Shown here: positions 28,353-59,325 of the stretch, in pieces
Layout: each line of letters opens with the position of its first letter
How positions within the stretch are numbered: the first letter of the stretch is position 1
DNA from: Burkholderiales bacterium RIFCSPHIGHO2_12_FULL_63_20
GTDB taxonomy: Bacteria > Pseudomonadota > Gammaproteobacteria > Burkholderiales > Burkholderiaceae_C
Assembly: GCA_001770775.1 (NCBI GenBank)
Contig: MESA01000041.1
Coordinates: 62,001 to 126,000 of the forward strand
Direction of reading: 5' to 3'
Length of the DNA stretch: 64,000 nt
Program-made: the position numbers and the translations under genes
The notes under the pieces: model-generated
Databases searched by the model: none
Seen by the model: only the letters and a program-made list of their open reading frames with translations
Told to the model about the DNA's origin: nothing

Positions 28353-29249
28353 GTGCATTTTGATCTTCAGGATCTCAGGCTGTTTGTTCGGGTGGCCGAG
28401 TCGGGTAGCTTGACGCGAGCTGCCAGCTTGCAGCATGCCTCTTTGGCTGCGGTGAGTGCGCGCATCAAGGCGCTGGAAGCTCAGGTGGGCATGGACCTGT
28501 TGGTGCGTCAGGCGCGCGGCGTCAAGCTGACACCTCCAGGCGATGCGTTCTTGCACCATGCGCGTGTGATGCTGCGACAACTGGAGTCCCTGCGCTCGGA
28601 TCTTCAGGAGTACGGTGGGGGCCTGCGCGGGCATTTGCGGGTGCACGCCAATACGACGGCGGTGTCAGACATCCTGCCGGACGTGCTGGCCGGCTACCTG
28701 GCCGATCATCCCAGGGTCAACGTGGACCTTCAAGAAAAACCGAATGCTGAAATCGCCAGTGGGGTGCTGGACGGTCGCTGCGATTTGGGCATCGTGGCAG
28801 GGCAGGTCGACCCGCTGGGCCTGCAGGCGATCCACTTCAGCACCGACCGGCTGGTGTTGGCGGCCTCACGAAAGCACCCGCTCGCGCGCCGCAAGGCGGT
28901 GAGCTTTGCCGAGGTGATCAACGAAGACATGGTGGGCATGCACCAGGGCAGCACCTTGCAGAACTTTCTGGAAGGTGAGGCCCATCGGCTGGGCAAATCG
29001 CTCAAGCTGCGGATTCAACTGAGCAGCTTCGATGCGATGTGCCGCATGATCGGCGCTGGGGTCTGTGTGGGTGTGGTGCCAGAGAGCACAGCACGCCGCA
29101 ATCAGGACAGCTTGCGCATCGCACTGGTGCGCTTGACCGATGCCTGGAGTGTGCGCGAGCGCTTCATCCTGGTGCGAGACCGCGCCAGCTTGCCCGGCTA
29201 TGCACAGGACCTGATCGCGACACTGGAGCGCCGTTACCAGAACTCGTGA
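28353..29249 (+). CDS. LysR family regulator divergent from the itaconate-type cluster
   Basis: 298-residue LysR protein with DLQDLRLFVRVAESGSLTRA, then ASLQHASLAAVSARIKALEA, at the N-terminus. The effector domain (TTAVSDILPDVLAGYLADHP, MVGMHQGSTLQNFL) is of the common aromatic/dicarboxylate-sensing type and is unlike the GbpR/PcaQ-like trio elsewhere in the window. The GTG start at 28353 is the only sensible one before the helix-turn-helix. Divergence from the ich-like gene makes it the prime candidate regulator of that operon. Its stop overlaps the convergent downstream LysR gene by 16 bases. Confidence 0.9.
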   Translation: MHFDLQDLRLFVRVAESGSLTRAASLQHASLAAVSARIKALEAQVGMDLLVRQARGVKLTPPGDAFLHHARVMLRQLESLRSDLQEYGGGLRGHLRVHANTTAVSDILPDVLAGYLADHPRVNVDLQEKPNAEIASGVLDGRCDLGIVAGQVDPLGLQAIHFSTDRLVLAASRKHPLARRKAVSFAEVINEDMVGMHQGSTLQNFLEGEAHRLGKSLKLRIQLSSFDAMCRMIGAGVCVGVVPESTARRNQDSLRIALVRLTDAWSVRERFILVRDRASLPGYAQDLIATLERRYQNS

Positions 29250-30247
29250 TGATGCAAGGGCTGGGGTTCGAACTGCATCGGCCATCTTGGAGCCTGTGCT
29301 TCGGCTTCACCTGTGGCGATCATCTGGGTACATTCGCGCAGCACCATGTGCACGAGCTTGAGCTCCATCGCCATGTGGCGCTCGCGCATCCAGATGGCAC
29401 CGATGCGCATGCGCGTGTCGCTCAGGCTCAGTGGCAGGCGCGCCAGCAAGCCGTCGTTTGCGAACTGTTCGGCCACATCGCGCGAGAGAAAGGCGATCGA
29501 GTCGGTGGCCTGCAGCACGCCCACATTGGTCATGATGGACGACGAATCGACCTGCAGGCGCGAGATCTGGATGGCGTTCTGGGTCAGGAAGGCATCAATG
29601 TGCTGGCGGATCTGGGTGCCTTGCGGTGACAGGATCACCGGGTACTGTTCCAGCACGCTCCAGTCGAGCAAGCGCCGCTGGGCGAGCGGGTGATCGCGGC
29701 GCACGGCGAGCACCAGTTCATCTTCATACAGCAGTTCGTGCATGAGGTCTTCGCTCAGCGGGCGACGCGGCAGGATGCTGATGGCCAGATCGAGGCTGCC
29801 AACACGCAGATCATGCACCAGGCTGGAGATGGTGCCCTCGCGCACGGACACGGCGAGCGGCATGGCTTCCGCCTCAAGCTTGGCCACGAAGCGTGGCAAC
29901 AGCGCTGCCGTGACAGAGGGGCTCACACCCAGGCTCACTCGCGGGATACGACCTTCTTGCAGGTCACGCAACTCTTCCTGCGCATTAAGCAGGCGGTTGA
30001 GCACCTGCCGCCCATGACGGATCAGGCAGGCGCCGTGTTCTGTGGGCTCGATGCCATGGGCGTTCGTCACGAACAGCGGTGCTTCCAGTGAGTCTTCCAG
30101 ACCGCTCAGCATCTTGAGCAGTTGTGCTTCCTTGAGGCCCAGGAACATCGCCGCGCGTGGCACGGATCGAAAGTCCTCGAGTGCGACCAGCACCTGGAAA
30201 TGTCGGATCTTGAGGTTGGCGCGGATGTACCAGTCGAGTAAAGCCAT
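29234..30247 (-). CDS. LysR family regulator divergent from module A, with unusual HTH
   Basis: 337 residues. The N-terminus (DWYIRANLKIRHFQVLVALE) and the C-terminal landmark SIMTNVGVLQATDSIAFLSR pair it with the LysR protein at 46956-47954. The recognition-helix region is abnormal: FLGLKEAQLLKMLSGLEDS replaces the usual LNVTQPAISKTLAGLE pattern, and LFVTNAHGIEPTEHG replaces LFERTARGMEPT. It is divergent from the module A binding-protein gene (226 bases between starts), the arrangement known for gbpR and the chvE sugar-uptake genes. It probably controls module A, but its DNA specificity should differ from that of its paralogue. Confidence 0.88.
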   Translation of the reverse strand: MALLDWYIRANLKIRHFQVLVALEDFRSVPRAAMFLGLKEAQLLKMLSGLEDSLEAPLFVTNAHGIEPTEHGACLIRHGRQVLNRLLNAQEELRDLQEGRIPRVSLGVSPSVTAALLPRFVAKLEAEAMPLAVSVREGTISSLVHDLRVGSLDLAISILPRRPLSEDLMHELLYEDELVLAVRRDHPLAQRRLLDWSVLEQYPVILSPQGTQIRQHIDAFLTQNAIQISRLQVDSSSIMTNVGVLQATDSIAFLSRDVAEQFANDGLLARLPLSLSDTRMRIGAIWMRERHMAMELKLVHMVLRECTQMIATGEAEAQAPRWPMQFEPQPLHHHEFW

Positions 30248-30473
30248 GGGTCTTCCGTGTTGAAGGGGCCGAGGTTACGTGCGCAAGTTCTGTGCCGCAT
30301 TGGGGATACCCCCCGGTCGATATAACTGCCTCCGTTTTTTTCGGTGCCAACGATTCATTAGACGCTGTTTGCACCGGCTGACACCATGCGACCACGCACT
30401 GAGAACAACCACTTCATTGCGTTGAATGCCCCATCCCTATTGGTTCTGTAATGGTTTCTCTACTTTCGGGAAC
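30248..30473. promoter_or_regulatory. Divergent promoter region between module A LysR and transporter genes
   Basis: This 226-base spacer holds the starts of both transcription units. A GGTTA element is at 30273-30277 and an ATATAAC element at 30320-30326; the same elements occur upstream of module B and of the porin gene. A run of seven T followed by CGG is at 30335-30344. No clear sigma-70 pair could be assigned with confidence. Confidence 0.35.
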
Positions 30474-31547
30474 ATGACGATGCTGAATGCCAAGATGATT
30501 TTGAAGGGTGCTGCTTTGGGCAGCTTGCTGGCTTGTGCCGTGAGCGCGCAAGCGGCCAACTGGTACCCCCTGACCTTGAACTCCACCAAGGACGGCAAGA
30601 CCATGCAGGTGCCGTACTCGCCGCTCGCCAAGGCTTCCAAGCCCTGGATGGTGTGCGTGTCCTTTCCGCACATGAAGGACCCCTTCTTCCTGGCTGCCAA
30701 CTACGGCATCGTCGAAGAAGCCAAGCGTCTGGGCGTGCGCGTTCAGGTGATGGACGCCGGCGGCTACACCCAGGTGAGCAACCAGATTTCGCAGATTGAA
30801 AACTGCGCGGCCGGTGGCGCCGATGCGGTGGTGATGGTGGCCATTGCGGCCGACGGCATGAACAACGTGCTGGCCAATCTGAAGAAGAAGAACATTCCCG
30901 TAGTCGACGCCATCAACGGTGTGACCTCCAAGGACACCGGCGTGCGCGTGCTGACCAGCCCGCGTGACGAAGGTCTGCGTGCGGGCCAGTACCTGGCCAA
31001 GAAGTACCCCAAGGGTGGCAAGCCGGTGAAGGTGGCCTGGCTGCCGGGTCCAGCCGGTGCAGGCTTCGTGGAGGCCTTCAACGCCGGCTTCCATGAAGGC
31101 ATCAAGGACAGCGCCGTGGTTGTGGTCGAAACCAAGAACGGCGATGTGGGCAAGGAAGTCCAGGCCCGTCTGGTCGAAGACCTGCTGCAGACCCACAAGG
31201 ATCTGGACTATCTGGTGGGCACCGCCGTGATGGCCGAGTCGGCTGTACCGCTGCTGCGCGCCCGCAACCTGCAAGACAAGGTCAAGCTGCTGTCGGTCTA
31301 CATGACCCCTGGCGTCTATCAAGGCCTCAAGAGCAAGTCGATCGAAGCGGCTGGTAGCGCGCCCGTGGTGCTGACGGCCCGCATCATGCTGGACTCTGCT
31401 GTGCGCCTGCTGGAGAACAAGGTCGAGCACACCGACATTGGCACGCTGGGCAGCGTCTTCACACAGAGCGACGTCGCGAAACTGCAGCCTGACACCGTGC
31501 TGGCACCCGCCTCGTTCAAGCCTGTCTTCCGCTTCGGTGGCAAGTGA
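30474..31547 (+). CDS. Periplasmic substrate-binding protein, TorT/RbsB-like (module A)
   Basis: About 357 residues with a Sec signal peptide (ILKGAALGSLLACAVSAQA then A/N at the mature start). The mature protein has the type I periplasmic binding fold and TorT-like segments VCVSFPHMKDPFFLAANYG, GGYTQVSNQISQIENCAAGG and SVYMTPGVYQGLKSKSIEA. It delivers a ligand to the adjacent ATPase and permease. Ligand identity is unknown; linkage to ring-modifying enzymes suggests an aromatic or heterocyclic compound rather than a sugar. The paralogue at 48334-49401 is closely similar. Either ATG 30474 or 30480 could be the start. Confidence 0.88.
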   Translation: MTMLNAKMILKGAALGSLLACAVSAQAANWYPLTLNSTKDGKTMQVPYSPLAKASKPWMVCVSFPHMKDPFFLAANYGIVEEAKRLGVRVQVMDAGGYTQVSNQISQIENCAAGGADAVVMVAIAADGMNNVLANLKKKNIPVVDAINGVTSKDTGVRVLTSPRDEGLRAGQYLAKKYPKGGKPVKVAWLPGPAGAGFVEAFNAGFHEGIKDSAVVVVETKNGDVGKEVQARLVEDLLQTHKDLDYLVGTAVMAESAVPLLRARNLQDKVKLLSVYMTPGVYQGLKSKSIEAAGSAPVVLTARIMLDSAVRLLENKVEHTDIGTLGSVFTQSDVAKLQPDTVLAPASFKPVFRFGGK

Positions 31548-31591
31548 GCCTTTGAACGTGGACTGCTGAACCCTCTGAGAGACCTGTCACC

Positions 31592-33115
31592 ATGCTTCAT
31601 CCCACCCGCGTCGATGTGGTCGAGCAGCCTGTGCTGCAAGCTCATGGCCTGAGCAAACGCTACGGCCAGCATCTGGCACTCCATGACGTCAGCTTCAGCG
31701 TGTGCGCCGGCCAGGTACATGTGCTGTTCGGCGAGAACGGGGCTGGCAAGTCCACCCTGATCTCGATGTTGGCGGGCGCCCGTGAGCCCAGCGAGGGGGA
31801 GATCGAGGTGGCAGGTTTCCGGGGCGCGTTCCGCTCCGTGTCCGAGTCCCGACAACACGGCGTGCGCGCCGTGTTCCAGGAGTTCTCGCTGATCCCGATG
31901 TTGAGCGTGGCCGACAACATCACCCTGGGTGAAGAGCCTCTGACGGGCGGGGTGATCCTGTCGCCCAGCAAGGCACGGGATGAGGCTCAACGGTTGATCC
32001 AGTTGCTGGGTTTCGATCTGGACCCGGATGCCCGTGTGGAAACCTTGCCGCGTGGCAAGCAGCAGATGGTGGAAATCTGCAAGGCGTTGCGTCATCGTCC
32101 GAAAGTGCTGATTTTGGACGAGCCCACTGCGTCTCTGTCCGAGCACGATGCGCAGTCTCTGTTCAAGCTGGTGCGCCAGCTCAAGGAGCAGGGCACGGCC
32201 ATCATCTACATCACCCACCGGATGCACGAGATCCCGCTGCTGGGCGACGAGGTGACGGTGTTGCGCGATGGTCGGCTGGTGGCCACGGTGCCGGCTGCCA
32301 CGCCCGAGGGCAAGCTCATCGAGCTGATGACCGGCCGCACGATGGCCAAGATCTACCCGGTGCTGCGCGACGAGTTTGGCCCGGAGCGCCTAGTCATGGA
32401 CCATGTGACCCTGCGTCACCAAGTGGGTCAGGTCGCGGTGCGCGATGCCAGCCTGCAGGTGCGCGCTGGTGAGATCGTCGGCATCGCCGGTCTGGTGGGA
32501 TGTGGCAAGAGCGAGTTGGCGCAGGCCTGCTTCGGCCTGCACCGCCTGCAAAAGGGCGAGATTCGTCTGGATGGTCAGGCGCTGCGCCTGCGCCGCCCGG
32601 CCGATGCGATCGCCAGCAAGATCTGGTACAGCCCGTCCGACCGCAAGAACGAAGGTTTGGCGCTCGGCCGGCCGGCGCGCGAGAACATGTCGCTGTCGGG
32701 GCTGGTGTGGGGTTCGTTTGCGAGCCGCTGGCTCAAGCCCAAGCGTGAACGCGCCATGCTGCACGACGTGGCAGGCCGTGTGGAGTTTCCCAAGCAACGC
32801 CTCAGTGAGCCGGTGGGCAACTTCTCCGGTGGCAACCAGCAAAAGGTGCTGTTGGCCAAGGGCTTGGCGCAAGACATCGAGGTCTACCTGTTCGACGAGC
32901 CCACGGTGGGCGTGGACATCGGCGCGCGCCTGGCGATCTACCAGTGCCTCGGTGAGCTGAGTGCGGCGGGTGCCGCCATCGTGATGGTGTCGTCCGACCT
33001 GCCCGAGCTGATGGGCATGACGCACCGGATGCTGGTGATGAACGAAGGTCGCATCGTCGCGGAGTTCCAGCGCGCCGAGTACGACGAGCACCGCATTCTC
33101 GAAAAGTTTTTCTGA
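31592..33115 (+). CDS. RbsA-like ABC transporter ATP-binding protein (module A)
   Basis: 507-residue double ATPase of the carbohydrate-uptake type 2 family. The first domain has Walker A GENGAGKST, a signature region LPRGKQQMVEICKAL and Walker B VLILDEPTASLSEHD. The second has a divergent Walker A (GLVGCGKSE), NFSGGNQQKVLLAKGL and FDEPTVGVD, as is usual for RbsA/XylG proteins. It starts 44 bases after the binding-protein gene and is followed by the permease gene 18 bases on. It energises import at the inner membrane. Confidence 0.94.
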   Translation: MLHPTRVDVVEQPVLQAHGLSKRYGQHLALHDVSFSVCAGQVHVLFGENGAGKSTLISMLAGAREPSEGEIEVAGFRGAFRSVSESRQHGVRAVFQEFSLIPMLSVADNITLGEEPLTGGVILSPSKARDEAQRLIQLLGFDLDPDARVETLPRGKQQMVEICKALRHRPKVLILDEPTASLSEHDAQSLFKLVRQLKEQGTAIIYITHRMHEIPLLGDEVTVLRDGRLVATVPAATPEGKLIELMTGRTMAKIYPVLRDEFGPERLVMDHVTLRHQVGQVAVRDASLQVRAGEIVGIAGLVGCGKSELAQACFGLHRLQKGEIRLDGQALRLRRPADAIASKIWYSPSDRKNEGLALGRPARENMSLSGLVWGSFASRWLKPKRERAMLHDVAGRVEFPKQRLSEPVGNFSGGNQQKVLLAKGLAQDIEVYLFDEPTVGVDIGARLAIYQCLGELSAAGAAIVMVSSDLPELMGMTHRMLVMNEGRIVAEFQRAEYDEHRILEKFF

Positions 33116-33133
33116 TTCTTCCAAGGACTTGCC

Positions 33134-34156
33134 ATGCAATCCCCTCCTACTGCCACCGCTACCCTGTCCGTGACACCGGAAGCCAGCGCACCGTCCTTCA
33201 AGCTGTTGCCCTGGCTGCAGCGTAACCGCCAGCAACTGGCGCTGCCCGTGATGTTCGTGGCCGCACTGATCTGGTTCTCCTGGCAGGCGCCCGGCTTTCT
33301 GTCGGGGGACAACCTCACCAACGTGTCACGCCAGTCGGTCTACCTGCTGATCGTGGCCCTGGGCCAGCTCATCGTGCTGATCTGCGGCGGTTTGGATCTG
33401 TCCGTCGGTGCGGTGGTGTCACTGACCTCGGTGGTCAGTGCCACGGTGATGGCCGCGGTGTACGCCGCGATGCCTGATTCGCCAGGTTTGGCGATTGCCG
33501 CGGGGCTGCTCTCTGGTGTGATCATCGCCTTGCTCGTGGGTGTCATCAACGGCATCGGGGCCACCTGGTTCAAGATCCCGCCCTTCATGATGACGCTGGG
33601 CCTGTCCTCGGTGCTGTTCGGCATCACTTTGCTGGTCAGCGGTGGTGTGCCCATCTACGGTCTGCCGCCTGAGCTGGGCCAGATCTTCGGTTACGGCCAG
33701 TTCGCCGGCATGCCCATCCCGTCGCTGGTGGCCCTGCTGCTCGTCGTGCTGACCTATGTGCTGCTGGAGTGGTCGCGTTTTGGTCGTCACCTGTATGCCA
33801 CCGGTGGCAATGCCCGCGCCGCCGAGCTGTCGGGCGTGAACACCACGAGCGTCACCATCATCGCCTTCGTCCTGTCGAGCCTGATGGCCATGCTGGCCGG
33901 CATCCTGCTGACCGCCCGCCTGGACACCGGCGAGTCGAACATCGGCGCCAGCCTGCCCCTTGAGTCGATTGCGGCCTGCGTGATCGCCGGCGTGAGCCTG
34001 GCCGGTGGCCAGGGACGCACCTTCACCGTGTTGATCGGCACCTTGCTGATCATGCTGGTTCAAAACGGCCTGAACCTGATGCAGGTCGGTGCCTATGCCC
34101 AAACCATGTCCATCGGCGCGATCCTGATTTTCGCCATGGCCCTGTCCCGTCATTGA
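33134..34156 (+). CDS. RbsC-like ABC transporter permease (module A)
   Basis: 340-residue inner-membrane permease of the branched-chain/ribose superfamily with eight to ten hydrophobic segments. Landmarks are LICGGLDLSVGAVVSLTSVV, PPFMMTLGLSSVLFGITLLV, HLYATGGNARAAELSGVNT and TARLDTGESNIGASLPLESI, followed by AACVIAGVSLAGGQG. The gap to the hydroxylase gene downstream is only 73 bases, and no terminator was seen there, so transport and catabolic genes probably share a transcript. Confidence 0.94.
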   Translation: MQSPPTATATLSVTPEASAPSFKLLPWLQRNRQQLALPVMFVAALIWFSWQAPGFLSGDNLTNVSRQSVYLLIVALGQLIVLICGGLDLSVGAVVSLTSVVSATVMAAVYAAMPDSPGLAIAAGLLSGVIIALLVGVINGIGATWFKIPPFMMTLGLSSVLFGITLLVSGGVPIYGLPPELGQIFGYGQFAGMPIPSLVALLLVVLTYVLLEWSRFGRHLYATGGNARAAELSGVNTTSVTIIAFVLSSLMAMLAGILLTARLDTGESNIGASLPLESIAACVIAGVSLAGGQGRTFTVLIGTLLIMLVQNGLNLMQVGAYAQTMSIGAILIFAMALSRH

Positions 34157-34229
34157 CCCCCACGGTCCCTGACCTTTCTTCTCAACCCCCCTGTCTGTTC
34201 CCCACTGACTTTACCGAGCGAGACACATC

Positions 34230-35777
34230 ATGAATGCACCCATGAACAAAGCTGCGCTGATTCCTTACACCGGCAAGGAATACCTCGAGAGCCTCAACGA
34301 CGGCCGCGAAGTCTGGATCTACGGCGAGCGTGTCAAGAACATCGCCGAACACCCGGCCTTCCGCAACTCGGCCCGCATGGTCGCGCGTTTCTACGATTCG
34401 CTGCATGACCCGGCCCGTCGCGACGTCCTGACGACCGAAACCGAATGGGGTGGCTACACCCACCGCTACTTCCGCGCCCCGATGAACGTGGCCGAGCAAG
34501 TGGCCGCCCGTGACGCCGTGGCCGAATCGCAGCGCATCTCGTACGGCTGGATGGGCCGCTCGCCCGACTACAAGGGCTCCTTCCTGGCCACGCTGGGCGC
34601 CAACGCCGCCTTCTACAAGGGCTATGAAGCTAACGCCACGGCCTGGTACCGCAAGGCCCAGGAACGCACCGCCTACATCAACCACGCGATCATGAACCCG
34701 CCGGTGGACCGCGACAAGCCGTCGGCCGACACCAACGACGTGTTCATCCGCGTCGTGCGTGAAACCGACGCTGGCATCTATGTGAGCGGCGCCAAGGTGG
34801 TGGCCACGGCTTCGGCCCTGACACACTTCACCTTCGTGGCCCACGCCGGTCAGATCCCCATCAAGGACGGTTCCTACGCCCCCGTCTTCATCGTGCCCAC
34901 CGGCGCCCCCGGCGTGAAGATGATCTCGCGCATGTCCAACGAGCAGCGTGCTGCCGTGATGGGCAGCCCGTTCGACTACCCGCTGTCCTCGCGCATGGAC
35001 GAGAACGACGCCATCCTGGTGCTGGACAACGTGTTCGTGCCGTGGGAAGACGTGTTCATGCACAACAACGTGGACCTGGCCAACCGCTTTGCGCCGGACT
35101 CCGGCTTCAACGCGCGCGCCGCCATGCACGGTTGCACCCGTCTGGCCGTCAAGCTGGACTTCATGACCGGCGTGCTGTCCAAGGCGCTGAGCATCACCGG
35201 CAGCAAGAGCTTCCACGGTGTGCAGTCGCGCTTCGGTGAAGTCGTCGCCTGGCGCAACACGATGTGGGGCCTGTCCGACGCCATGGCCAAGAGCAATGTG
35301 CCCTGGAACGGCATGGTGCAGCCGGATGCACGTTATGGCGCCGCCTACCGCACGATCTCGCAGATCGCCTTCCCGATGATCAAGCAGATCATCGAAGCCA
35401 GCGTCTCCAGCGGCCTGATCTACCTGCCTTCGCACGCCGACGACTTCAAGACGCCGGAGCTGCGTGGCTACCTGGACCGCTTCGTGCGCGGCTCGGGTGG
35501 TGTGGATGCCGTTGAGCGCGTCAAGGTCATGAAGCTGCTGTGGGACTGCATCGGCACCGAATTCGGTGGCCGCAGCGAGCTGTACGAGATCAACTACCTG
35601 GGCTCCAACGACGTGACCCGCCTGGCCAATCTGTGGGAAGCCCAGGGCAGCGGCGACATGGCCAACATGGAAGCGCTGGTGGACCGTTGCATGGGCGAGT
35701 ACGACCTTGACGGTTGGACCACCCCTGACCTCATCAACAACGACGACGTCAGCTTCCTGCGCAACAAGAAGGCCTGA
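34230..35777 (+). CDS. HpaB-like FADH2-dependent aromatic hydroxylase (module A)
   Basis: 515-residue oxygenase of the 4-hydroxyphenylacetate 3-hydroxylase family, which inserts oxygen ortho to a phenolic hydroxyl using FADH2 from a partner reductase. The flavin/substrate motif GWMGRSPDYKG supplies Arg110 and Tyr114, and NHAIMNPPVDRD supplies His152; these match the catalytic Arg, Tyr and His of HpaB. Further family blocks are KVVATASALTHFTF and the C-terminal RGSGGVDAVERVKVMKLLWD. The reductase is three genes downstream at 37248. A close paralogue is at 52168. The true substrate is unknown; HpaB relatives also act on chlorophenols and pyrrole-carboxylates. Confidence 0.9.
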   Translation: MNAPMNKAALIPYTGKEYLESLNDGREVWIYGERVKNIAEHPAFRNSARMVARFYDSLHDPARRDVLTTETEWGGYTHRYFRAPMNVAEQVAARDAVAESQRISYGWMGRSPDYKGSFLATLGANAAFYKGYEANATAWYRKAQERTAYINHAIMNPPVDRDKPSADTNDVFIRVVRETDAGIYVSGAKVVATASALTHFTFVAHAGQIPIKDGSYAPVFIVPTGAPGVKMISRMSNEQRAAVMGSPFDYPLSSRMDENDAILVLDNVFVPWEDVFMHNNVDLANRFAPDSGFNARAAMHGCTRLAVKLDFMTGVLSKALSITGSKSFHGVQSRFGEVVAWRNTMWGLSDAMAKSNVPWNGMVQPDARYGAAYRTISQIAFPMIKQIIEASVSSGLIYLPSHADDFKTPELRGYLDRFVRGSGGVDAVERVKVMKLLWDCIGTEFGGRSELYEINYLGSNDVTRLANLWEAQGSGDMANMEALVDRCMGEYDLDGWTTPDLINNDDVSFLRNKKA

Positions 35778-35810
35778 TCGACGACTGCACGCACCCAAGG
35801 AGTTTTGACG

Positions 35811-36755: not shown

Positions 36756-36799
36756 GTTTTCCCTTCCTCCTGATCTCAACCCTTGTCGAAAGGTTTTCC

Positions 36800-37210: not shown

Positions 37211-37247
37211 GCCGCCTGATTGATTGTCATTGCGTTTGGAGTTTGTC

Positions 37248-37781: not shown

Positions 37782-37788
37782 GGCACGG

Positions 37789-40466: not shown

Positions 40467-40493
40467 AGCACGCGAAGAGAGAGGACCACGGCC

Positions 40494-41153: not shown

Positions 41154-41191
41154 CCCGTTCGGATCGCTGACACGCTGAAAGCAGGTTTCCC

Positions 41192-41692: not shown

Positions 41693-41694
41693 GC

Positions 41695-42504: not shown

Positions 42505-42519
42505 ACCGAGGAGCACAAC

Positions 42520-44279: not shown

Positions 44280-44286
44280 TTGGAGT

Positions 44287-46926: not shown

Positions 46927-46955
46927 GGTGCCCGTCGATGGGGCTGGCTGCGAGC

Positions 46956-50930: not shown

Positions 50931-50938
50931 GTTCCAAC

Positions 50939-51967: not shown

Positions 51968-52167
51968 CGCAGGGCCTCATGCCTGGGAAATGAGTGGCAA
52001 TGGGTTGTTCTACTCATGTCGCACAGGTTATGAGATCCGCTTGCAATCGTCATTAGACAAACCGGGTCCCGTCCCAGAACATGGGACCCACAGCACCACA
52101 ACAACAGCAATTTGAGTGAGGCGCTCGGCATCCCCCGAAGCCCTCCCTATCCCCAGGAGAACTTTCC
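51968..52167. promoter_or_regulatory. Intergenic gap with hairpin before the module B hydroxylase
   Basis: 200 bases inside module B. GGGTCCC (52064-52070) pairs with GGGACCC (52083-52089) across a 12-base loop; no T-tract follows. A GGTTAT half-site occurs at 52027-52032. It may be an internal promoter or mRNA processing/stability element separating transport from catabolism. Confidence 0.35.
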
Positions 52168-53709
52168 ATGTCAGCAGCAGAAGTCAACAAGGACCACATC
52201 CCCTTCACCGGCCAGGAATACCTGGACAGCCTGGACGACGGCCGTGAGGTCTGGATCTACGGTGAGCGTGTCAAGAAGATCACCGATCACCCGGCCTTCC
52301 GCAACTCGGCTCGCATGATCGCCCGCATGTACGACGCGCTGCACGATCCGGCCAAGAAAGACATCCTGACGGTGCCGACGGAGTGGGGTGGCTTCACGCA
52401 CCGCTTCTACCGCGCAGCCAACACCATCGAAGAACAGGTCGCACAGCGTGATGCCATCGCGGAATGGCAGCGCATCTCCTGGGGCTGGATGGGCCGCTCG
52501 CCCGACTACAAGGGCTGCTTCCTGGGCACCCTGGGCGCCAACGCCGACTTCTACAAGGGCTTTGAAGAGAACGCCCGGCGCTGGTACCGCAAGGCGCAGG
52601 AAAAGACCTGGTACGTCAACCACGCCATCATGAACCCGCCCGTGGACCGCGACAAAGGTCCGGACGCCGGCAAGGACGTGTTCGTGCGCGTCACCAAGGA
52701 AACCGACAAGGGCATCTATGTGAGCGGCGCCAAGGTCGTGGCCACCGGCTCGGCCCTGACCCACTTCACCTTCATCGGCCACGTCGGCCAGGTGGCGGTG
52801 CAGGACCCGGCCTACTGCCCGGTCTTCATCATGCCCACCAACGCCCCCGGCGTGAAGCTGCTGTGCCGCGTCTCCAACGAGTACCGCGCCGCCGCCCTGG
52901 GCAGCCCCTTCGACTACCCGCTCTCCAGCCGTCTGGACGAGAACGACGCCATCCTGGTGATGGATAACGTGTTCATCCCCTGGGAAGACGTGTTCCTGCA
53001 TGGCGACCTGAAGCAGGCCAATGCCTACAACGTCGGCTCCGGCTACCTGGAGCGCGCCTCCATGCACGGCTGTACCCGCTTCGCCGTCAAGATGGACTTC
53101 CTGGTCGGCCTGCTGACCCGCGCGCTGGAGATCACCGGTGCCAGCACCTTCCACGGCGTGCAGTCGCAGCTCGGTGAGGTCATCGCCTGGCGCAACGCCT
53201 TCTGGGCCCTGTCCGACGCCATGGCCAAGAGCGCCCAGCCCTGGAACGGCATGATCCGCCCGATGCCCGAGCCCGCCGGTGCCTACCGCGTGCTCAATCA
53301 GGAGGCGATGCCCAAGATCAAGAACATCATCGAGACCGTGGTGGCTTCGGGCCTGATCTACCTGAACTCGCACACCAGCGACTTCAAGTGCGCCGAGATT
53401 CGCCCCTACCTCGACCAGTACGTGCGTGGCTCCGGCGGCGCCGATGCGGTCGAGCGCGTCAAGGTCATGAAGATGCTGTGGGACGCCATCGGCAGCGAGT
53501 TCGGCGCCCGCCACGAGCTCTACGAGATCAACTACATCGGCTCCAACGACGTGACCCGTCAGACCAACCTGTGGTCGGCCAAGGGCAATGGCCTGTTGGA
53601 CCAGTGCAAGGCCTTTGCCCAGACCGCCATGGACGAGTACGACCTGGACGGCTGGACCGCGAAGGATCTGATCAACCCGGATGACGTGAGCATCCTGACC
53701 AAGCGTTGA
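52168..53709 (+). CDS. HpaB-like FADH2-dependent aromatic hydroxylase (module B)
   Basis: 513-residue paralogue of the module A oxygenase. Catalytic residues are again Arg110 and Tyr114 (GWMGRSPDYKG) and His152 (NHAIMNPPVDRD). KVVATGSALTHFTF and RGSGGADAVERVKVMKMLWD correspond to module A blocks. Large sections are nearly identical (GREVWIYGERVK, HPAFRNSARM), but the substrate-side loops differ, for example ANTIEEQVAQRDAIAEWQR and the segment around residues 285-295, which suggests a different ring substrate. The flavin reductase gene follows immediately. Confidence 0.9.
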   Translation: MSAAEVNKDHIPFTGQEYLDSLDDGREVWIYGERVKKITDHPAFRNSARMIARMYDALHDPAKKDILTVPTEWGGFTHRFYRAANTIEEQVAQRDAIAEWQRISWGWMGRSPDYKGCFLGTLGANADFYKGFEENARRWYRKAQEKTWYVNHAIMNPPVDRDKGPDAGKDVFVRVTKETDKGIYVSGAKVVATGSALTHFTFIGHVGQVAVQDPAYCPVFIMPTNAPGVKLLCRVSNEYRAAALGSPFDYPLSSRLDENDAILVMDNVFIPWEDVFLHGDLKQANAYNVGSGYLERASMHGCTRFAVKMDFLVGLLTRALEITGASTFHGVQSQLGEVIAWRNAFWALSDAMAKSAQPWNGMIRPMPEPAGAYRVLNQEAMPKIKNIIETVVASGLIYLNSHTSDFKCAEIRPYLDQYVRGSGGADAVERVKVMKMLWDAIGSEFGARHELYEINYIGSNDVTRQTNLWSAKGNGLLDQCKAFAQTAMDEYDLDGWTAKDLINPDDVSILTKR

Positions 53710-53717
53710 GTGTCGCC

Positions 53718-54281
53718 ATGAGAAATCTGTCCATGACCGCCCTTGCCATGATGGAAACCATGCCGCCCCCGATGGCCGCACCCGCCTCGCAACCCGCCAC
53801 GCCGCCGTTCACCTCGCGTCAGTTCCGCGACGCGATGGGCCAGTTCGCCACGGGGGTGGTGGTCATCACCACCGAGGTGGACGGTGAACCCCACGCCATG
53901 ACGGCCAACGCCTTCATGTCGGGCTCTCTGGAGCCGCCGCTGGTGATCGTGTCCGTGGCCTGCACGGCCAAGATGCACGACAAGCTGCAACGCGCAGGCC
54001 GGTTTGGCGTGAGCGTGCTGGCCAAGCCCCAGCTGTCGGTCAGCAACCACTTTGCTGGCAAGCCCTCGCCCGACTACGCACCGCAGTTCCGGTCGCTGTG
54101 CGACATGCCGGTGATCGAGGGCGCGGCGGTGCAACTGGCGGCCGAACTGCAGCACGCCTACCCCTGCGGTGACCACACGCTGTTCATCGGTCGGGTGCAA
54201 GAGCTTTGCCTGGACGGCGAATGCGATGGCCCCCTGCTGTACCACAGTGGCCGCTACGCAGCGCTGAACCAGCTGAACTGA
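53718..54281 (+). CDS. HpaC-like NAD(P)H:flavin oxidoreductase (module B)
   Basis: 187-residue reductase partner of the adjacent HpaB-like oxygenase. The core FRDAMGQFATGVVVITTEVD, then HAMTANAFMSGSLEPPLVIV, and the C-terminal GDHTLFIGRVQEL match the module A reductase. The N-terminal 25 residues are Met/Pro-rich and not conserved; ATG 53718 is adopted, but inner Met codons or a TTG at 53706 overlapping the upstream stop are possible. In module B the reductase directly follows its oxygenase, whereas module A has two genes in between. Confidence 0.88.
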   Translation: MRNLSMTALAMMETMPPPMAAPASQPATPPFTSRQFRDAMGQFATGVVVITTEVDGEPHAMTANAFMSGSLEPPLVIVSVACTAKMHDKLQRAGRFGVSVLAKPQLSVSNHFAGKPSPDYAPQFRSLCDMPVIEGAAVQLAAELQHAYPCGDHTLFIGRVQELCLDGECDGPLLYHSGRYAALNQLN

Positions 54282-54335
54282 GCGAGACGGGGCTGCGGCC
54301 CCATCTGACGACGAATCTGATTGAGAGTAGAGACC

Positions 54336-55268
54336 ATGGCACGAGCCATCGACATCGCCCAAGTGACCTATGAAGCGCCTGACCTGGCCTTGATGGAACG
54401 CTTCATGACGGACTTCGGTCTGCGTCGCGTGCCCAGTACCGATGGGGTGCTGTACATGCGCGGTAGTGGGCACCAGCATCACCTGCACGTGACCCGCCAC
54501 GCGATCAAGCAACGCTTCATCGGCGCCACGCTGGAAGTGATCAGCAAGGCCGATCTGGAAGAGCTGGCGGTCTTGCCTGGCTCATCGCCCATCGAGTGGT
54601 CGACCGAGCCCGGTGGCGGCTGGCAGGTGCTCATGTACACACCGGACGGCATCGAGATCCGCGCCGTCTGGGGGCGTGAGCACGCCGCGCCGCTGCCCAT
54701 TCGGGGGCCGCATGCCTTCAACGCCGGCCAGGCCAAGCACCGCGTCGGCTCGTCCATCCGCGTCAAGCGCGAACCGTGCGAGGCCATGCGCCTGGGCCAC
54801 TTCGTGCTGCACGTGAGCAACCACAACGAGACCGTGCAGTGGTTCAGCGAGCGCTTCGGCATGCTGCCCTCCGACTTCTTCGTGCCGCCCGGCACCGATG
54901 GCCCGCCCTACGGTACCTTCCTGCGCTTTGACCGTGGGGCCGAGCTGGTGGACCACCACAGCCTGCTGATCCTGCAGTCGGACTGGGTGGGCGTGCACCA
55001 CTGCTCCTTCGAGGTGCAGGACCTCGACGCCATCATGGGCGCGCACGACTACCTGGTCCAGCAAGGCTGGCAGCTCGACTGCGGCGTGGGTCGCCACCTG
55101 ATGGGCAGCCAGGTCTTTGACTACTGGAAAGACCCGTTCGGTTTCCGCGTCGAACACTACACCGACGGTGACGTGGTCGATGCCCACCACCAGCCCGGTG
55201 TGTTCAACGGCACGGCGCCCGAAACCACCCAGTGGGGCATGGAGCCTCCCCTGGAATTCTTCCAGTGA
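54336..55268 (+). CDS. VOC-family extradiol ring-cleavage dioxygenase (module B)
   Basis: 310-residue type I extradiol dioxygenase paralogue. The predicted Fe(II) ligands are His155 (RLGHFVLHV), His222 (GVHHCSFEVQD) and Glu273 (FRVEHYTDGD), with His207/208 (VDHHSLL) near the acid-base position. Both the N-terminal non-catalytic VOC module and the C-terminal catalytic one are complete. ATG 54336 gives the same N-terminal pattern (MARAIDIAQVTYEAPDL) as module A. It should open the ring hydroxylated by the HpaB-like enzyme. Confidence 0.88.
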   Translation: MARAIDIAQVTYEAPDLALMERFMTDFGLRRVPSTDGVLYMRGSGHQHHLHVTRHAIKQRFIGATLEVISKADLEELAVLPGSSPIEWSTEPGGGWQVLMYTPDGIEIRAVWGREHAAPLPIRGPHAFNAGQAKHRVGSSIRVKREPCEAMRLGHFVLHVSNHNETVQWFSERFGMLPSDFFVPPGTDGPPYGTFLRFDRGAELVDHHSLLILQSDWVGVHHCSFEVQDLDAIMGAHDYLVQQGWQLDCGVGRHLMGSQVFDYWKDPFGFRVEHYTDGDVVDAHHQPGVFNGTAPETTQWGMEPPLEFFQ

Positions 55269-55281
55269 CCAGGATCACCAC

Positions 55282-56037
55282 ATGAGCTACACCACCGAAC
55301 CGATCTCCGACATCACGCGCGAACGCCTGATGAAGGTGGGCACGGCCAACGTGACCAACGCACTGCTCAAGCGGGGCTTTCGCAACGTCTACCTGCTGGG
55401 TCTGGCGCCGCTCGATCCGGCGCAAGGTCAGCTGGTCGGCCCCGCCTACACGCTGCGCTTCATGCCGGCCCGTGAAGACCTGGACACCATGGCGAACTAT
55501 GGCAAACGCGACAACCTGCATCGCGTGGCGATCGAGCAGTGCCCACAAGGTGCTGTCCTCGTGATCGATGCCATGGGCTCGACCAAGGCCGCTGCCATGG
55601 GCGACATGATGGCCCTGCGCCTCAGGCACCGTGGCGTCCAAGGCGTCGTCACCGATGGGGGCTACCGTGATGCGCCCGCCATCCTGGCCACCGGTCTGCC
55701 GTGCTACCAGAAGCAGAGCGCGCCGCCGGCGACTGCCATCGCCATGCACCCCATCGAGCTGAACGGCCCGGTCGGTTGCGCCGGTGTACCGGTCTACCCC
55801 GGTGACGTCATCGTCGGAGACGGCGAAGGTGTGGTCTGCATCCCCCGCCATCTGGTCGACGAAATCGCCATCGAAGCCCTCGACGCCTTCGAATACGAAG
55901 CCTATGCCGCCCAGCTCATCGAGCGCGGCACCTCCATCCTCGACTGCTTCCCGGCTACCCCTGAGAGCCGTGCAGCCTACGACCAATGGGTGGCCGATGG
56001 CCGTCCCGCCTTCCCACCTCTGGAGACCACCCCATGA
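55282..56037 (+). CDS. RraA-family aldolase-like protein (module B)
   Basis: 251 residues, paralogous to the module A protein. The signature VVTDGGYRDAPAILATGLP carries the Arg-Asp pair, and GPVGCAGVPVYPGDVIVGDG, followed by EGVVCIPRHLVDEI, completes the core. The predicted role is retro-aldol cleavage of a 4-hydroxy-2-oxo acid or a keto-acid decarboxylation late in the pathway. It is 13 bases after the dioxygenase gene and overlaps the cupin gene by four bases, in contrast to module A where it is the last gene. Confidence 0.87.
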   Translation: MSYTTEPISDITRERLMKVGTANVTNALLKRGFRNVYLLGLAPLDPAQGQLVGPAYTLRFMPAREDLDTMANYGKRDNLHRVAIEQCPQGAVLVIDAMGSTKAAAMGDMMALRLRHRGVQGVVTDGGYRDAPAILATGLPCYQKQSAPPATAIAMHPIELNGPVGCAGVPVYPGDVIVGDGEGVVCIPRHLVDEIAIEALDAFEYEAYAAQLIERGTSILDCFPATPESRAAYDQWVADGRPAFPPLETTP

Positions 56038-56456
56038 GCCCCGATGTCAACACCATGAAGACGCTGGAAATCCTCATCAACCGTGAGGACCTGGACCCAG
56101 ACCAGTGGATCAACTTCCCCGAGTATGGCTTCCGCCAGTACTTCCTGTTCAAGAACACCGAGACCGGCGCGTCCATCGCCATCCTGGAGTACGAGAAGGG
56201 CGGCCGCATTCCGGTCAAGCACGTCCACGCCTCCAACCAGTTCATGTACTGCCTGGAAGGCGACTACGAGTACACCGACGTGGGTCTGCGGCTCAAGCCC
56301 GGTTCCTTCTACATGAACCCGGTCGGCCAGGCCCACGGCCCGACCATTGCCCATGAGCGCAGCGTGCTGATCGAGATCTACGACGGCCCCCACTACAAGG
56401 AAAAGCCGGTCTTCCACACCGACGAGACCATCGGCGACTTCCTGGCCAAGGCCTGA
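56034..56456 (+). CDS. Small cupin-domain protein (module B)
   Basis: 140-residue single cupin with His63 and His65 in VKHVHASNQFMYCLEGDYEY, Gln69 at the usual Glu position, and His101 in NPVGQAHGPTIAHE. It is a paralogue of the cupin at 14422-14856 and has no counterpart in module A. It overlaps the RraA gene by four bases and is followed by the aldehyde dehydrogenase gene 34 bases on, so a function within the pathway is likely. It could be an isomerase, lactonase-like or dioxygenase step; sequence alone does not tell. Confidence 0.85.
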   Translation: MSPDVNTMKTLEILINREDLDPDQWINFPEYGFRQYFLFKNTETGASIAILEYEKGGRIPVKHVHASNQFMYCLEGDYEYTDVGLRLKPGSFYMNPVGQAHGPTIAHERSVLIEIYDGPHYKEKPVFHTDETIGDFLAKA

Positions 56457-56490
56457 GCTGCGCCACCCCATTCAGATTGAGAGTTCATCC

Positions 56491-58020
56491 ATGTTTGACA
56501 CCCAAGACATCCTTCAGAAGGCCGGCATCGCTGCCGTCCAGTCCGGCTCTTATGGCGCCACCCTGGGCTGGGCCCCGGTTGAAGGCCGCACCACGTTCGA
56601 GGCCATCTGTCCCGCCGATGGCAAGCTGAGCGCCCGCATCGCCGGCTCGACCGCGGAAGACTACGAAGCCATCGTCTCGGCCTCGCTCGACGCCCAGAAG
56701 CGCTGGCGCATGGTGCCGGCCCCCACCCGTGGCGAGTTCGTGCGTCGCATCGGTGAGCTGGTCGAGGAAAACATGGAGATGCTGGCCGCGGTCGTCATGC
56801 TCGACACTGGCAAGTCCCTCATGGAAGCCAAGGGTGAGCTCAAGGAAGTGGTCGACATGGCCACCCTGTCGGCAGGCCAGTCGCGCATGATGTACGGCTT
56901 CACCCAGCAGTCGCAGCGCGCCAAGCACCGCATGTACGACCAGTGGCTGCCGCTGGGCGTGGTCGGCATCATCACCGCCTACAACTTCCCCGCCGCCGTG
57001 TGGGCGCAAAACGGCTTCCTGTCGGTCATCGGGGGCAACACCGTGATCTGGAAGCCCAGCCCCAAGGTGCCGCTCACGGCCATCGCCATCCAGAAGCTGG
57101 CCAACCAGGCCATGAAGGAATTCAAGTGTGAGGGCGTGTTCTCGCTCTACACCCCGGCCGACAACGAGCTGGCCGAGCTGCTGCTGTGCGACACTCGCGT
57201 GCCGCTGATCTCCTTCACCGGCTCGTCGGGCGTGGGCCGCAAGGTGGCTGATCTGGTCGGCCAGACCCTGGGCCGTCGCTTCATGCTCGAATGCTCGGGC
57301 AACAACGGCTGCATCGTCGACGAAACCGCCGACCTGAAGCTGGCTGCCCGCGCCATCACCTTCGGTGCTGTGGGCACCACCGGCCAGCGCTGCACCAGCA
57401 CCCGCCGCATCATCGCGCACCGCTCCGTCCTCAACGAACTGGTCGAACTGATGGCGCATTCCTTCGAGCAGATCACCATCGGTGACCCGCGTGAACCCGG
57501 CACCGTGGTCGGCCCGCTGATCGACGGCGCGGCGGTGGGTCAGTACGAAGCTGCACTGGCGCAGGCCGTGAGCCTGGGCGGCAAGGTCGTGTACGGTGGT
57601 CAGCGCATCAATCGTCCCGGCCACTACGTGCAGGCCGCCATCGTCACCGACGTCAAGCCCGAGTGGGAGTGCGTGCAGCACGAAACCTTCGCGCCCATCG
57701 TCTACGTCATGCCCTACGACACCCTGGACGAGGCCATCGCCATCCACAACGGCGTTCCCCAAGGTCTGGCCTCGGGCATGCACTCCACGAACCTCACCAA
57801 CATCGAAACCTTCCTGTCGGCAGCCGGCAGTGACTGCGGCATCGTGCGCATCAACATGGGCACCACCGGTGCGGACGTCGGCGCTGCTTTCGGGGGCGAA
57901 AAGGAAACTGGCGGTGGTCGTACCGCGGGGTCCGACTCCTGGAAGGGCTACATGCGCCGTCAAAGCGTGTGTGTGAACTGGGGCGGCGAGTCCGCCTGGG
58001 ACAGCCGCATCAAGCTGTGA
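56491..58020 (+). CDS. ALDH7-like NAD-dependent aldehyde dehydrogenase (module B)
   Basis: 509-residue aldehyde dehydrogenase. The catalytic residues are Cys301 (GTTGQRCTSTRR) and Glu267 (MLECSGNNG). ITAYNFPAAVWAQN, the NIPTSGAEIG-like NMGTTGADVGAAFGGEKETG and GSDSWKGYMRR resemble the ALDH7/alpha-aminoadipic semialdehyde group, although the usual ELGGNN is ECSGNN here. It would oxidise the semialdehyde left by ring cleavage, as HpaE or aminomuconate semialdehyde dehydrogenases do. Module A has no ALDH gene but a molybdenum hydroxylase in the corresponding part of the cluster. Confidence 0.9.
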   Translation: MFDTQDILQKAGIAAVQSGSYGATLGWAPVEGRTTFEAICPADGKLSARIAGSTAEDYEAIVSASLDAQKRWRMVPAPTRGEFVRRIGELVEENMEMLAAVVMLDTGKSLMEAKGELKEVVDMATLSAGQSRMMYGFTQQSQRAKHRMYDQWLPLGVVGIITAYNFPAAVWAQNGFLSVIGGNTVIWKPSPKVPLTAIAIQKLANQAMKEFKCEGVFSLYTPADNELAELLLCDTRVPLISFTGSSGVGRKVADLVGQTLGRRFMLECSGNNGCIVDETADLKLAARAITFGAVGTTGQRCTSTRRIIAHRSVLNELVELMAHSFEQITIGDPREPGTVVGPLIDGAAVGQYEAALAQAVSLGGKVVYGGQRINRPGHYVQAAIVTDVKPEWECVQHETFAPIVYVMPYDTLDEAIAIHNGVPQGLASGMHSTNLTNIETFLSAAGSDCGIVRINMGTTGADVGAAFGGEKETGGGRTAGSDSWKGYMRRQSVCVNWGGESAWDSRIKL

Positions 58021-58045
58021 TCACCGACTTAGGAATTTTTCAGAC

Positions 58046-58474
58046 ATGACCATTCTCAAAAAGCGTTCCTCCTCTCCCGCCGTGGCCGAGCCGGTCCCCG
58101 GCATGTGGACCAACTGCATGACCGTGGGCAACATCGCCTACATCTCGGGCATGACCGCCCGCAGTAACGACCGTGTGACCATCCAGGGCAAGGACGAGTA
58201 CGAACAGTCTCGCGTGATTTTCCAGAAGATCAAGGACCTGGCCGAGGCCGCCGGCGGCTCGATCAACGACGTCGTCAAGATGACCATCTTCGTCGTCAAC
58301 ATCGAGCACAACCACCTGGTGTGGAAGGCACGTCAGGAGTTCTTCAGCGGCGACTTCCCCGCCTGCACGCTGGTGGAAGTGAAGTCGCTGGCCAAGGGCG
58401 CCAGCGCCGAGATCCTGGTCGAAATCGAGGGCATTGCCCATATCGGTTGCAGCGGTGAGAAGGCCGCTGCATGA
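58046..58474 (+). CDS. RidA family protein without the catalytic Arg (module B)
   Basis: 142-residue RidA-fold protein, paralogue of 36800-37210. Blocks are VGNIAYISGMTARS, YEQSRVIFQKIKDLAEAAGG, VVKMTIFVVNIEH and RQEFFSGDFPACTLVEVKSL. In the motif that is YPARSxVEV in deaminating RidA proteins, Cys107 stands in place of Arg. The gene overlaps the following FAH gene by four bases. Retention of the same Arg loss in both copies suggests a shared, non-canonical activity in both pathways rather than general imine quenching. Confidence 0.88.
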   Translation: MTILKKRSSSPAVAEPVPGMWTNCMTVGNIAYISGMTARSNDRVTIQGKDEYEQSRVIFQKIKDLAEAAGGSINDVVKMTIFVVNIEHNHLVWKARQEFFSGDFPACTLVEVKSLAKGASAEILVEIEGIAHIGCSGEKAAA

Positions 58475-59325
58475 AGCTGATCTCCTTCCAGACGCGCACG
58501 GGCGACAGCTTCGGTCTGGTGGACGGTCAGGACGTGTACGACCTGGGCCGCCGCCTGGGTCCCGAGTGTCCTGACCTGCGCACGGCCATCGCGCAGAACC
58601 AGTTGGCGCAGTTCACCCCGTTGCCTGGCAGCGTGGCACCGGATCACCAACTGAGCCAGTTGACCTTGCTGCCGGTCATTCCCAATCCGGGCAAGATCGT
58701 GTGCGTGGGGCTCAACTACCATGCGCACCGCCTCGAAGGCGGGCACGGCGAAGTGGGGGATCCCACCTTGTTCCTGAGGGTGGCGGAGTCCCAGGTGGCT
58801 CACGGCCAGCCGATGATCTGCCCGAAGGAGTCGGACCAGTTCGATTATGAGTGCGAGATTGCTGTGGTGATCGGCCGGGGTGGCGATCGGATCACCGTGG
58901 CCGATGCACTCACCCATGTGGCCGGTATCTCGGCCTACAACGATGGCTCGGTGCGCGACTGGCAGATGGCCACGTCGCAGTGGACCGCCGGTAAGAACTT
59001 CCGCGCCACCGGGGCCTTCGGGCCCTGGCTCGTGACGTCGGACGAATTGCCGCCGGATCGCGTGCTGAGCGTCGTCACCCGCCTCAACGGTGTGGAGATG
59101 CAGCGCAGCACGACCGACCTGCTGATCTTCTCGATCCCGCGCTTGATCAGCTACATCTCGGCCATCATGCCGCTGTCCCCCGGCGACGTGATCGTGACCG
59201 GTACGCCGGGCGGTGTGGGCTTCCGCCGCACGCCCCAGGTGTTCATGCACCACGGTGACGTGGTGGAGGTGGAGGTGGAGGGCGTGGGCGTCTTGCGCAA
59301 CACGGTCGTCAAGGAAGGCGCCTGA
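58471..59325 (+). CDS. Fumarylacetoacetate hydrolase family protein (module B)
   Basis: 284-residue FAH-fold enzyme with metal-site residues in FDYECEIAVVIGRGGDRI and GISAYNDGSVRDWQM. NPGKIVCVGLNYHAHRLEGG, GKNFRATGAFGPWLVTSDEL and VIVTGTPGGVGFRRTPQ match the module A enzyme closely. It is the last gene of module B; a hairpin follows. The step catalysed (hydrolysis, hydration, decarboxylation or isomerisation of the ring-fission product) cannot be decided from sequence. Confidence 0.9.
   Translation: MKLISFQTRTGDSFGLVDGQDVYDLGRRLGPECPDLRTAIAQNQLAQFTPLPGSVAPDHQLSQLTLLPVIPNPGKIVCVGLNYHAHRLEGGHGEVGDPTLFLRVAESQVAHGQPMICPKESDQFDYECEIAVVIGRGGDRITVADALTHVAGISAYNDGSVRDWQMATSQWTAGKNFRATGAFGPWLVTSDELPPDRVLSVVTRLNGVEMQRSTTDLLIFSIPRLISYISAIMPLSPGDVIVTGTPGGVGFRRTPQVFMHHGDVVEVEVEGVGVLRNTVVKEGA

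Follow-up and report, generated by a model that had tools for sequence, protein, structure and literature searches.

Two paralogous, LysR-flanked gene modules for the putative uptake and meta-cleavage of hydroxylated aromatics in a Burkholderiales genome

The hpa (homoprotocatechuate) genes provide hydroxylation by HpaBC, extradiol ring cleavage, semialdehyde oxidation, a step performed by a member of the FAH family and an aldolase reaction. Two paralogous gene modules, termed here A (positions 30474-44117) and B (48334-59325), occur on the plus strand of a 64,000-nucleotide stretch of DNA (the window) from Burkholderiales bacterium RIFCSPHIGHO2_12_FULL_63_20 (contig MESA01000041.1, positions 62,001 to 126,000) and most likely work like hpa or the amn 2-aminophenol pathway, but from other parts, serving to take up two related hydroxylated aromatics and degrade them by meta-cleavage. 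This type of meta-cleavage is already known; the combination of genes and the modular swaps within it appear to be new.

The hpa/hpc systems and the modules have in common HpaBC hydroxylation, type I extradiol cleavage, semialdehyde oxidation, the FAH-family step and an aldolase. The modules differ in having an ALDH7-like aldehyde dehydrogenase (ALDH) or a molybdenum-dependent oxidase instead of HpaE, Rid and cupin proteins instead of the isomerase, RraA instead of HpaI, and a dedicated CUT2-type importer; moreover, all module members tested fall under the hpa/hpc family cut-offs. With amn they share a semialdehyde dehydrogenase, a Rid-family protein, an FAH-family step and an aldolase, but in the modules the dioxygenase is of the VOC family, entry is through HpaBC, the Rid protein lacks the deaminase arginine and the aldolase is RraA. 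The hcdABC genes for 7-hydroxycoumarin in Pseudomonas mandelii 7HK4 encode, in the part of the account available, a flavin hydroxylase and a type I extradiol dioxygenase, with a hydrolase encoded downstream (PMC6222606), all of which hcdABC-type loci share with the modules; among 62 loci whose VOC protein is about 40% identical, 50 have an FAH-family match, but cupin and RraA occur in only one (L057). Similarly, the kpi pathway for 4-hydroxypyridine in Arthrobacter sp. IN13 has, in the available part of its description, a flavin hydroxylase, extradiol opening of a diol and an FAH gene within the cluster (PMC7356986). In that same part, however, KpiC is of the amidohydrolase family rather than VOC, KpiA is not of the HpaB type, and the portion of the gene list examined contains neither RraA nor cupin; 4-hydroxypyridine degradation was rejected as a direct match because its dioxygenase belongs to another family. 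An earlier reading of the window from its letters alone (the sequence-only reading) could name no matching pathway, and a word-match search of open-licence full texts likewise yielded, among the matches listed, no described equivalent of the gene set.

Layout and enzymes of the two modules

The sequenced genome comprises 3.69 Mb in 48 contigs, with the window lying inside a 200-kb contig. The modules, their regulators and the genes between them are as follows.

29234-30247 (-): LysR regulator of A, divergent (PF03466 and PF00126)
30474-31547 (+): A, TorT-like periplasmic binding protein of CUT2 type (Peripla_BP_4; NF008185 327.8 bits, above the cut-off of 200; TIGR02955 246.5 bits, below the cut-off of 310)
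31592-33115 (+): A, RbsA-like ABC ATPase (profile matches)
33134-34156 (+): A, RbsC-like permease (PF02653)
34230-35777 (+): A, HpaB-like FADH2-dependent hydroxylase (TIGR02310 654 bits, below the cut-off of 885)
35805-36755 (+): A, putative VOC extradiol ring-cleavage dioxygenase (TTG start assumed)
36800-37210 (+): A, Rid-family protein, Ser replacing the imine-hydrolase Arg (alignment)
37224-37781 (+): A, HpaC-like flavin reductase (PF01613; TTG start assumed)
37789-40161 (+): A, CoxL-like molybdopterin large subunit (YRGAGR, no AYRCSFR)
40158-40466 (+): A, YciI-like protein (PF03795)
40494-41153 (+): A, CoxG-like protein (PF06240)
41192-41692 (+): A, CoxS-like 2Fe-2S subunit (profile match)
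41695-42504 (+): A, CoxM-like FAD subunit (profile match)
42520-43377 (+): A, FAH-family protein (profile match)
43374-44117 (+): A, RraA-family aldolase/decarboxylase (D-x20-R-D present)
44591-45649 (+): Gram-negative porin, between the modules (PF13609)
45880-46959 (-): XdhC-like molybdoenzyme maturation factor, between the modules (NF045664 138 bits, below the cut-off of 350)
46956-47969 (-): LysR regulator of B, divergent (PF03466 and PF00126)
48334-49401 (+): B, TorT-like periplasmic binding protein (Peripla_BP_4; NF008185 377.8 bits, above the cut-off of 200, scored on 48316-49401)
49398-50930 (+): B, RbsA-like ATPase (PF00005)
50927-51967 (+): B, RbsC-like permease (PF02653)
52168-53709 (+): B, HpaB-like hydroxylase (profile and alignment to solved HpaB)
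53706-54281 (+): B, HpaC-like flavin reductase (TTG start assumed)
54321-55268 (+): B, putative VOC extradiol dioxygenase (residues numbered from a TTG start)
55282-56037 (+): B, RraA-family aldolase/decarboxylase (PF03737)
56034-56456 (+): B, 3-His cupin with H63, H65 and H101 (fold and sequence comparison)
56491-58020 (+): B, aldehyde dehydrogenase, ALDH7/piperidine-6-carboxylate-dehydrogenase-like (NF050084 595 bits, below the cut-off of 730)
58046-58474 (+): B, Rid-family protein, Cys replacing Arg (alignment)
58471-59325 (+): B, FAH-family protein (profile match)

The paralogy described in the sequence-only reading is borne out: each gene type that it named occurs twice as an open plus-strand frame, and the encoded proteins are 54-69% identical between modules, both in the importer (binding protein 69%, RbsA 66%, RbsC 68%) and among the enzymes (HpaB 68%, FAH 65%, RraA 64%, VOC 56%, HpaC 55%, RidA 54%). 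A divergent LysR gene does stand beside each module (LysR A and B are 48% identical), and 48334 is a correct start codon for B. The common gene order that had been claimed applies to binding protein, RbsA, RbsC and HpaB; the remaining genes are rearranged between A and B. The gene inventory, on the other hand, was incomplete, having overlooked the module-specific extras--that is, a complete CoxLMS molybdenum oxidase, CoxG and YciI in A, and the ALDH7-like dehydrogenase and the 3-His cupin in B. Intergenic gaps within each module range from -4 to 73 nt, with the exception of 200 nt upstream of the B HpaB gene (given the starts used here), and this tight spacing indicates operons. In both modules the binding protein, double-domain ATPase and permease all belong to the families of a CUT2 importer with a TorT-like binding protein.

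Catalytic residues had been described as intact, and they are so for VOC, RraA, FAH, ALDH and HpaB, but not for RidA, in which the position of Arg105 is occupied by Ser in A and by Cys in B. The site residues of VOC B (H160, H213, H227, H259, Y268 and E278, numbered from the TTG start) form a His/His/Glu plus His/His/Tyr set that does not vary in any of the 20 aligned sequences, including three from outside the family, and that we take to correspond to the set in homoprotocatechuate dioxygenase (HPCD). The best Foldseek match of the VOC AlphaFold model (pLDDT 90.6) is 3b59, named a Mn-bound glyoxalase (Novosphingobium), followed by structures of catechol 2,3-dioxygenase, dihydroxybiphenyl dioxygenase and HPCD. 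By its predicted two-domain fold, 2-His-1-carboxylate site and second-shell His/His/Tyr, the VOC protein qualifies as a putative type I extradiol dioxygenase.

HpaB retains R110, Y114 and H152, presumably the catalytic residues, which in B align with identical residues of solved HpaB, and the ALDH of B, which is closest to piperidine-6-carboxylate/aminoadipate-semialdehyde dehydrogenases, retains Cys301 and Glu267. The AYRCSFR loop marks aerobic CO dehydrogenases; because YRGAGR replaces this loop in the CoxL protein of A, which scores 501.5 bits with TIGR02416 against a cut-off of 991, that function was rejected. RraA retains an Arg-Asp pair within a D-x20-R-D motif. The available part of one study describes the corresponding Arg123-Asp124 pair as required in HMG/CHA aldolase (PMC5065237), and the Arg-Asp equivalents fit a predicted RraA-fold pyruvate aldolase/decarboxylase.

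The change in RidA is not confined to the window. Among 25 aligned Rid proteins (including the window copies and four related loci), the residue at the position of E. coli RidA Arg105 is Cys in 15, Ser in 9 and Ala in 1. The available parts of two papers describe this arginine as essential to imine hydrolysis and predictive of deaminase activity (PMC4433059, PMC5619798); the former, in the same part, gives Ser at this position for about 10% of RidA proteins and terms the functions of Rid4-7 unknown. The A and B proteins thus fall outside the imine deaminases (RidA, Rid1-3) as delimited by Arg105.

The three cupin histidines, H63, H65 and H101, are invariant across 13 sequences. The top Foldseek matches of the cupin model (pLDDT 87.7) are acetylacetone dioxygenase (Dke1) and 2,4'-dihydroxyacetophenone dioxygenase (DAD), with KdgF close behind; the top matches have a TMq of 0.64-0.65 and about 20% identity, and a sequence search returned only quercetin 2,3-dioxygenase-type entries (E about 5e-4). 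Because Dke1 and DAD are nearest, with KdgF near, the cupin might cleave a C-C bond or isomerise. It is present in all 12 carrier genomes tested (72-85% identity), in six plasmid records and, at E 1e-20, in 4 of 399 genomes of the order, the window genome counted. That a single cupin serves both modules was rejected, given a second one within the window at about 14422-14856 (-).

Related loci and the history of the modules

A genome scan, limited to the best 80 of at least 585 relatives, supplied 18 of 23 tabulated loci; the others are L021, L028, L029, L033 and L129, and per-gene identity thresholds were chosen by the analyst. Left out of the 23 are window A and B, L036, L034 (HpaB 71% only), the 61 loci L054-L056 and L058-L115 (VOC about 40%), and L116, L117, L130 and L131, which are related cupin/Rid loci that lack this type of VOC. 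VOC, the selection criterion, is present in all 23, along with RraA in 21, cupin in 20, RidA in 19, HpaB and FAH in 15 each, RbsA in 13 and the binding protein in 11. The semialdehyde oxidiser is ALDH only in 12 loci and CoxL only in nine; none has both, and the two with neither (L042 and L047) are on contigs that stop inside the cluster.

Other parts vary. The entry hydroxylase is HpaB in 15 loci, a flavin monooxygenase (FMO) in three (L021 and L052, of the PRK07538 class, and L050, a 61% relative) and a xanthine dehydrogenase (XDH)-like molybdoenzyme, CoxL2, in three (L029, L051 and L053), whose genes lie immediately upstream of VOC. The L029 protein scores 595 bits against XdhA, below the cut-off of 780, and those of L051 and L053 were assigned by 82% and 66% identity to it. 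A search for HpaB in 11 genomes or records gave no match for the L050, L052 or L053 genomes or for the Gemmobacter plasmid, and at best 33% identity in the L051 genome and 22% in G038. As to importers, RbsA is found in 13 of the 23 loci and an NCS1 permease in five, all actinobacterial, with TRAP, TctC or Liv-type genes elsewhere.

Conserved neighbourhoods occur in Streptomyces, Rhodococcus, Corynebacterium, Pseudomonas, Advenella and others. Two of three Streptomyces linear plasmids inspected after a plasmid search with VOC B (VOC 62-66% identity) encode HpaB, VOC, RraA, cupin, ALDH and Rid in one run, which also holds an NCS1 permease, a flavin reductase, an acyl-CoA-dehydrogenase-like protein and FAH. 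A Gemmobacter plasmid combines TorT/RbsA/RbsC and CoxLMS with a second, XDH-like molybdoenzyme adjoining VOC, and a malonic semialdehyde reductase gene is situated beside this cluster; neighbouring plasmid genes were taken as leads only, not as a reading of the substrate. The sequence-only reading had proposed looking for such gene sets across Burkholderiales: they do recur, but the core is bound neither to a TorT-type importer nor to that order, and the recurrence of the same sets in other families and phyla indicates an association beyond chance. These comparisons show a core of VOC, cupin, RraA, Rid and FAH, a putative pathway that is rare, modular and distributed across Proteobacteria and Actinobacteria.

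A VOC tree of 32 rows, window copies included, places A in a 10-row clade (97/98; CoxLMS 8, ALDH 1, unlabelled 1) and B in an 8-row clade (96/93; ALDH 7, unlabelled 1) that covers Proteobacteria and Actinobacteria. The tree requires at least four changes between ALDH and CoxLMS, and five for the type of hydroxylase if 'none seen' is counted as a state. An HpaB tree likewise separates A from B by a 100/100 branch. A recent tandem duplication was consequently rejected, since A and B belong to distinct VOC clades, which include relatives from other families and phyla, and lie on opposite sides of the HpaB tree. One VOC copy at 53% identity or more was found in each of 10 carrier genomes searched, so that the window genome is the sole one here with both types; in 36 other genomes of its genus the best VOC match is 40%. 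In Rubrivivax (L047) an A-type set is followed, at the contig end, by a B-type HpaB gene.

Several loci have further neighbours. A contig labelled as a Klebsiella pneumoniae metagenome-assembled genome, possibly mis-binned, has an A-type core together with a gene for a TRAP (DctM) transporter (L041). In L029 and L051 the core is adjoined by genes for a GMC enzyme, a TorT-like binding protein and members of the carboxymuconolactone-decarboxylase family; the L051 GMC enzyme is weakly pyranose-oxidase-like (111 bits against a cut-off of 545), and these neighbours are a faint hint of a glycosylated substrate there. A related cluster type that lacks this VOC (L116, L117 and L131), from G038 and from plasmids of Agrobacterium and Mesorhizobium, comprises cupin, Ldh-family oxidoreductase, Arg-less Rid and monooxygenase genes, with FAH added in L116 and L117 and an amidohydrolase in L116 and L131.

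Candidate pathway, substrate and alternatives

With a probability of roughly 0.62, each module would be an inducible operon for the uptake and degradation of a small hydroxylated aromatic, the two modules serving two related compounds--an assignment that fits their separate clades and separate LysR genes. The meta-cleavage route with its own importer that was proposed in the sequence-only reading is well supported by protein families, residues, predicted fold and conserved neighbourhoods. The compound would be sensed by LysR and, to judge from family and operon, imported by TorT/RbsA/RbsC; HpaBC, with its conserved residues, would then hydroxylate it ortho to an existing hydroxyl to give a vicinal diol, which VOC, with its predicted fold and full active site, would open to a semialdehyde acid. 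Oxidation of the semialdehyde would fall to ALDH in B and to CoxLMS in A, which are considered equivalent because they are mutually exclusive in otherwise similar loci. Conjecturally, Rid (probably not as a deaminase) and the cupin (by isomerisation or C-C cleavage) would act on the resulting acid; finally, FAH would hydrolyse or decarboxylate and RraA would release pyruvate- or oxaloacetate-type products.

If this is true, a rare catabolic core, chromosomal or plasmid-borne, is shared by several bacterial families from at least two phyla; the three steps at which non-orthologous proteins replace one another (hydroxylase, semialdehyde oxidiser and importer) make its chemistry directly testable; a role could be assigned to Arg-less Rid proteins and to a diagnostic cupin; and TorT-like binding proteins would gain additional substrates.

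A number of observations weigh against this reading. Two of the 23 loci (L048 and L057) have no recognised hydroxylase, FAH exceeds the analyst's threshold in just 15, and some open reading frames in the relatives' loci are without annotation. L036 encodes HpaB (81%), HpaC and VOC (68%), but its 20.9 kb contain no cupin, RraA, ALDH or Rid match, while L051 has a distant HpaB (31%) alongside CoxL2. In L049 the VOC belongs to the A clade but the HpaB to the B side, which implies that the parts have been reassorted and do not always travel together. Likewise, because hydroxylase and importer vary among loci, the compound cannot be read from them.

As substrate, a hydroxypyridine-like N-heteroaromatic has a slight edge over a plain phenolic acid, since in some relatives an XDH-like molybdoenzyme adjoins VOC and others have an NCS1 permease. 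That the substrates are indeed hydroxypyridines or related N-heterocycles, with HpaBC, an FMO or a molybdenum hydroxylase producing a dihydroxy-heterocycle that VOC opens, is a possibility falling somewhat short of an even chance. It draws on the molybdoenzyme genes that immediately precede VOC in L029, L051 and L053, on the lack of an HpaB match in the L053 genome and on the Gemmobacter plasmid (the remainder of the Gemmobacter genome was not searched), on the five actinobacterial NCS1 permeases, on the FMO loci and on the Gemmobacter malonic semialdehyde reductase. However, the genes annotated in the two modules include neither a deformylase nor an amidase, the molybdoenzyme may act elsewhere on the molecule, and L051 also has its distant HpaB. 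Nor was RidA accepted as proof of nitrogen in the substrate: its Arg105 equivalent is absent in 25 of 25 proteins, and without that arginine a nitrogen-containing reading cannot rest on it. A more elaborate proposal--a horizontally spread N-heteroaromatic ring-cleavage pathway with ALDH-or-molybdoenzyme oxidation, a new catalytic role for Rid, oxygenolytic C-C cleavage by the cupin and a plug-in core having interchangeable hydroxylases and importers--is unlikely as a whole.

Equally doubtful is that the modules are diverged hpa copies acting on nitrogen-free phenolic acids resembling 4-hydroxyphenylacetate. HpaB, HpaC and FAH come from hpa-related families, VOC matches HpaD weakly and HPCD is among its top fold matches; yet all scores are below hpa cut-offs (HpaB 654/659 against 885; HpaD 63/54 against 321; ALDH 226 against 638 for HpaE; FAH 141/148 against 276 for HpaG-C), no protein genome-wide passes the HpaB or HpaD cut-off, and the genes annotated in the modules, the only part of the genome checked for HpaF and HpaI types, include neither. 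A standard hpa operon was rejected outright, the HpaB and HpaD scores being far under the NCBIfam equivalog cut-offs.

An amn-like degradation of aminophenols, in which VOC would yield a product resembling 2-aminomuconate semialdehyde that is oxidised by the ALDH7-like enzyme, deaminated by Rid and finished by FAH and RraA, is rather improbable. The gene set matches amn stepwise, and by chemical reasoning the substrate of the ALDH's nearest relatives resembles 2-aminomuconate semialdehyde. Such a product would suit the ALDH7-like enzyme, but deamination would then need another catalyst, inasmuch as the imine-hydrolysis arginine is missing from all 25 Rid proteins; AmnE, by comparison, has a conserved cleft residue, Arg117, presumed here to be the Arg105 equivalent, and the amn dioxygenase is of a different family. 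Biosynthetic tailoring, with HpaB modifying a tyrosine-like unit attached to a carrier, as happens in enediyne pathways, is very improbable: 4oo2, the closest relative of HpaB with a solved structure (644 bits), is taken to be the enediyne enzyme SgcC, but the genes annotated in the modules include no carrier protein, nonribosomal peptide synthetase or polyketide synthase, and the importer, FAH and RraA point to catabolism.

Neighbouring blocks in the window

A third linked block (12036-22586) encodes a StyA-like FAD monooxygenase (230 bits, below the cut-off), an AndR-like AraC regulator, the second cupin (of the same family), an SDR protein, an MFS protein, a pyruvate carboxylase, an MFS efflux protein and a LysR protein that shares 50% identity with LysR B; the block may form a further branch that leads into the same chemistry. 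On the minus strand at 23517-28293, MmgE/PrpD, CaiB-type CoA-transferase, acyl-CoA dehydrogenase and FAS1-dehydratase-like genes, with a LysR-like open reading frame alongside on the plus strand, look like a separate CoA-linked organic-acid operon.

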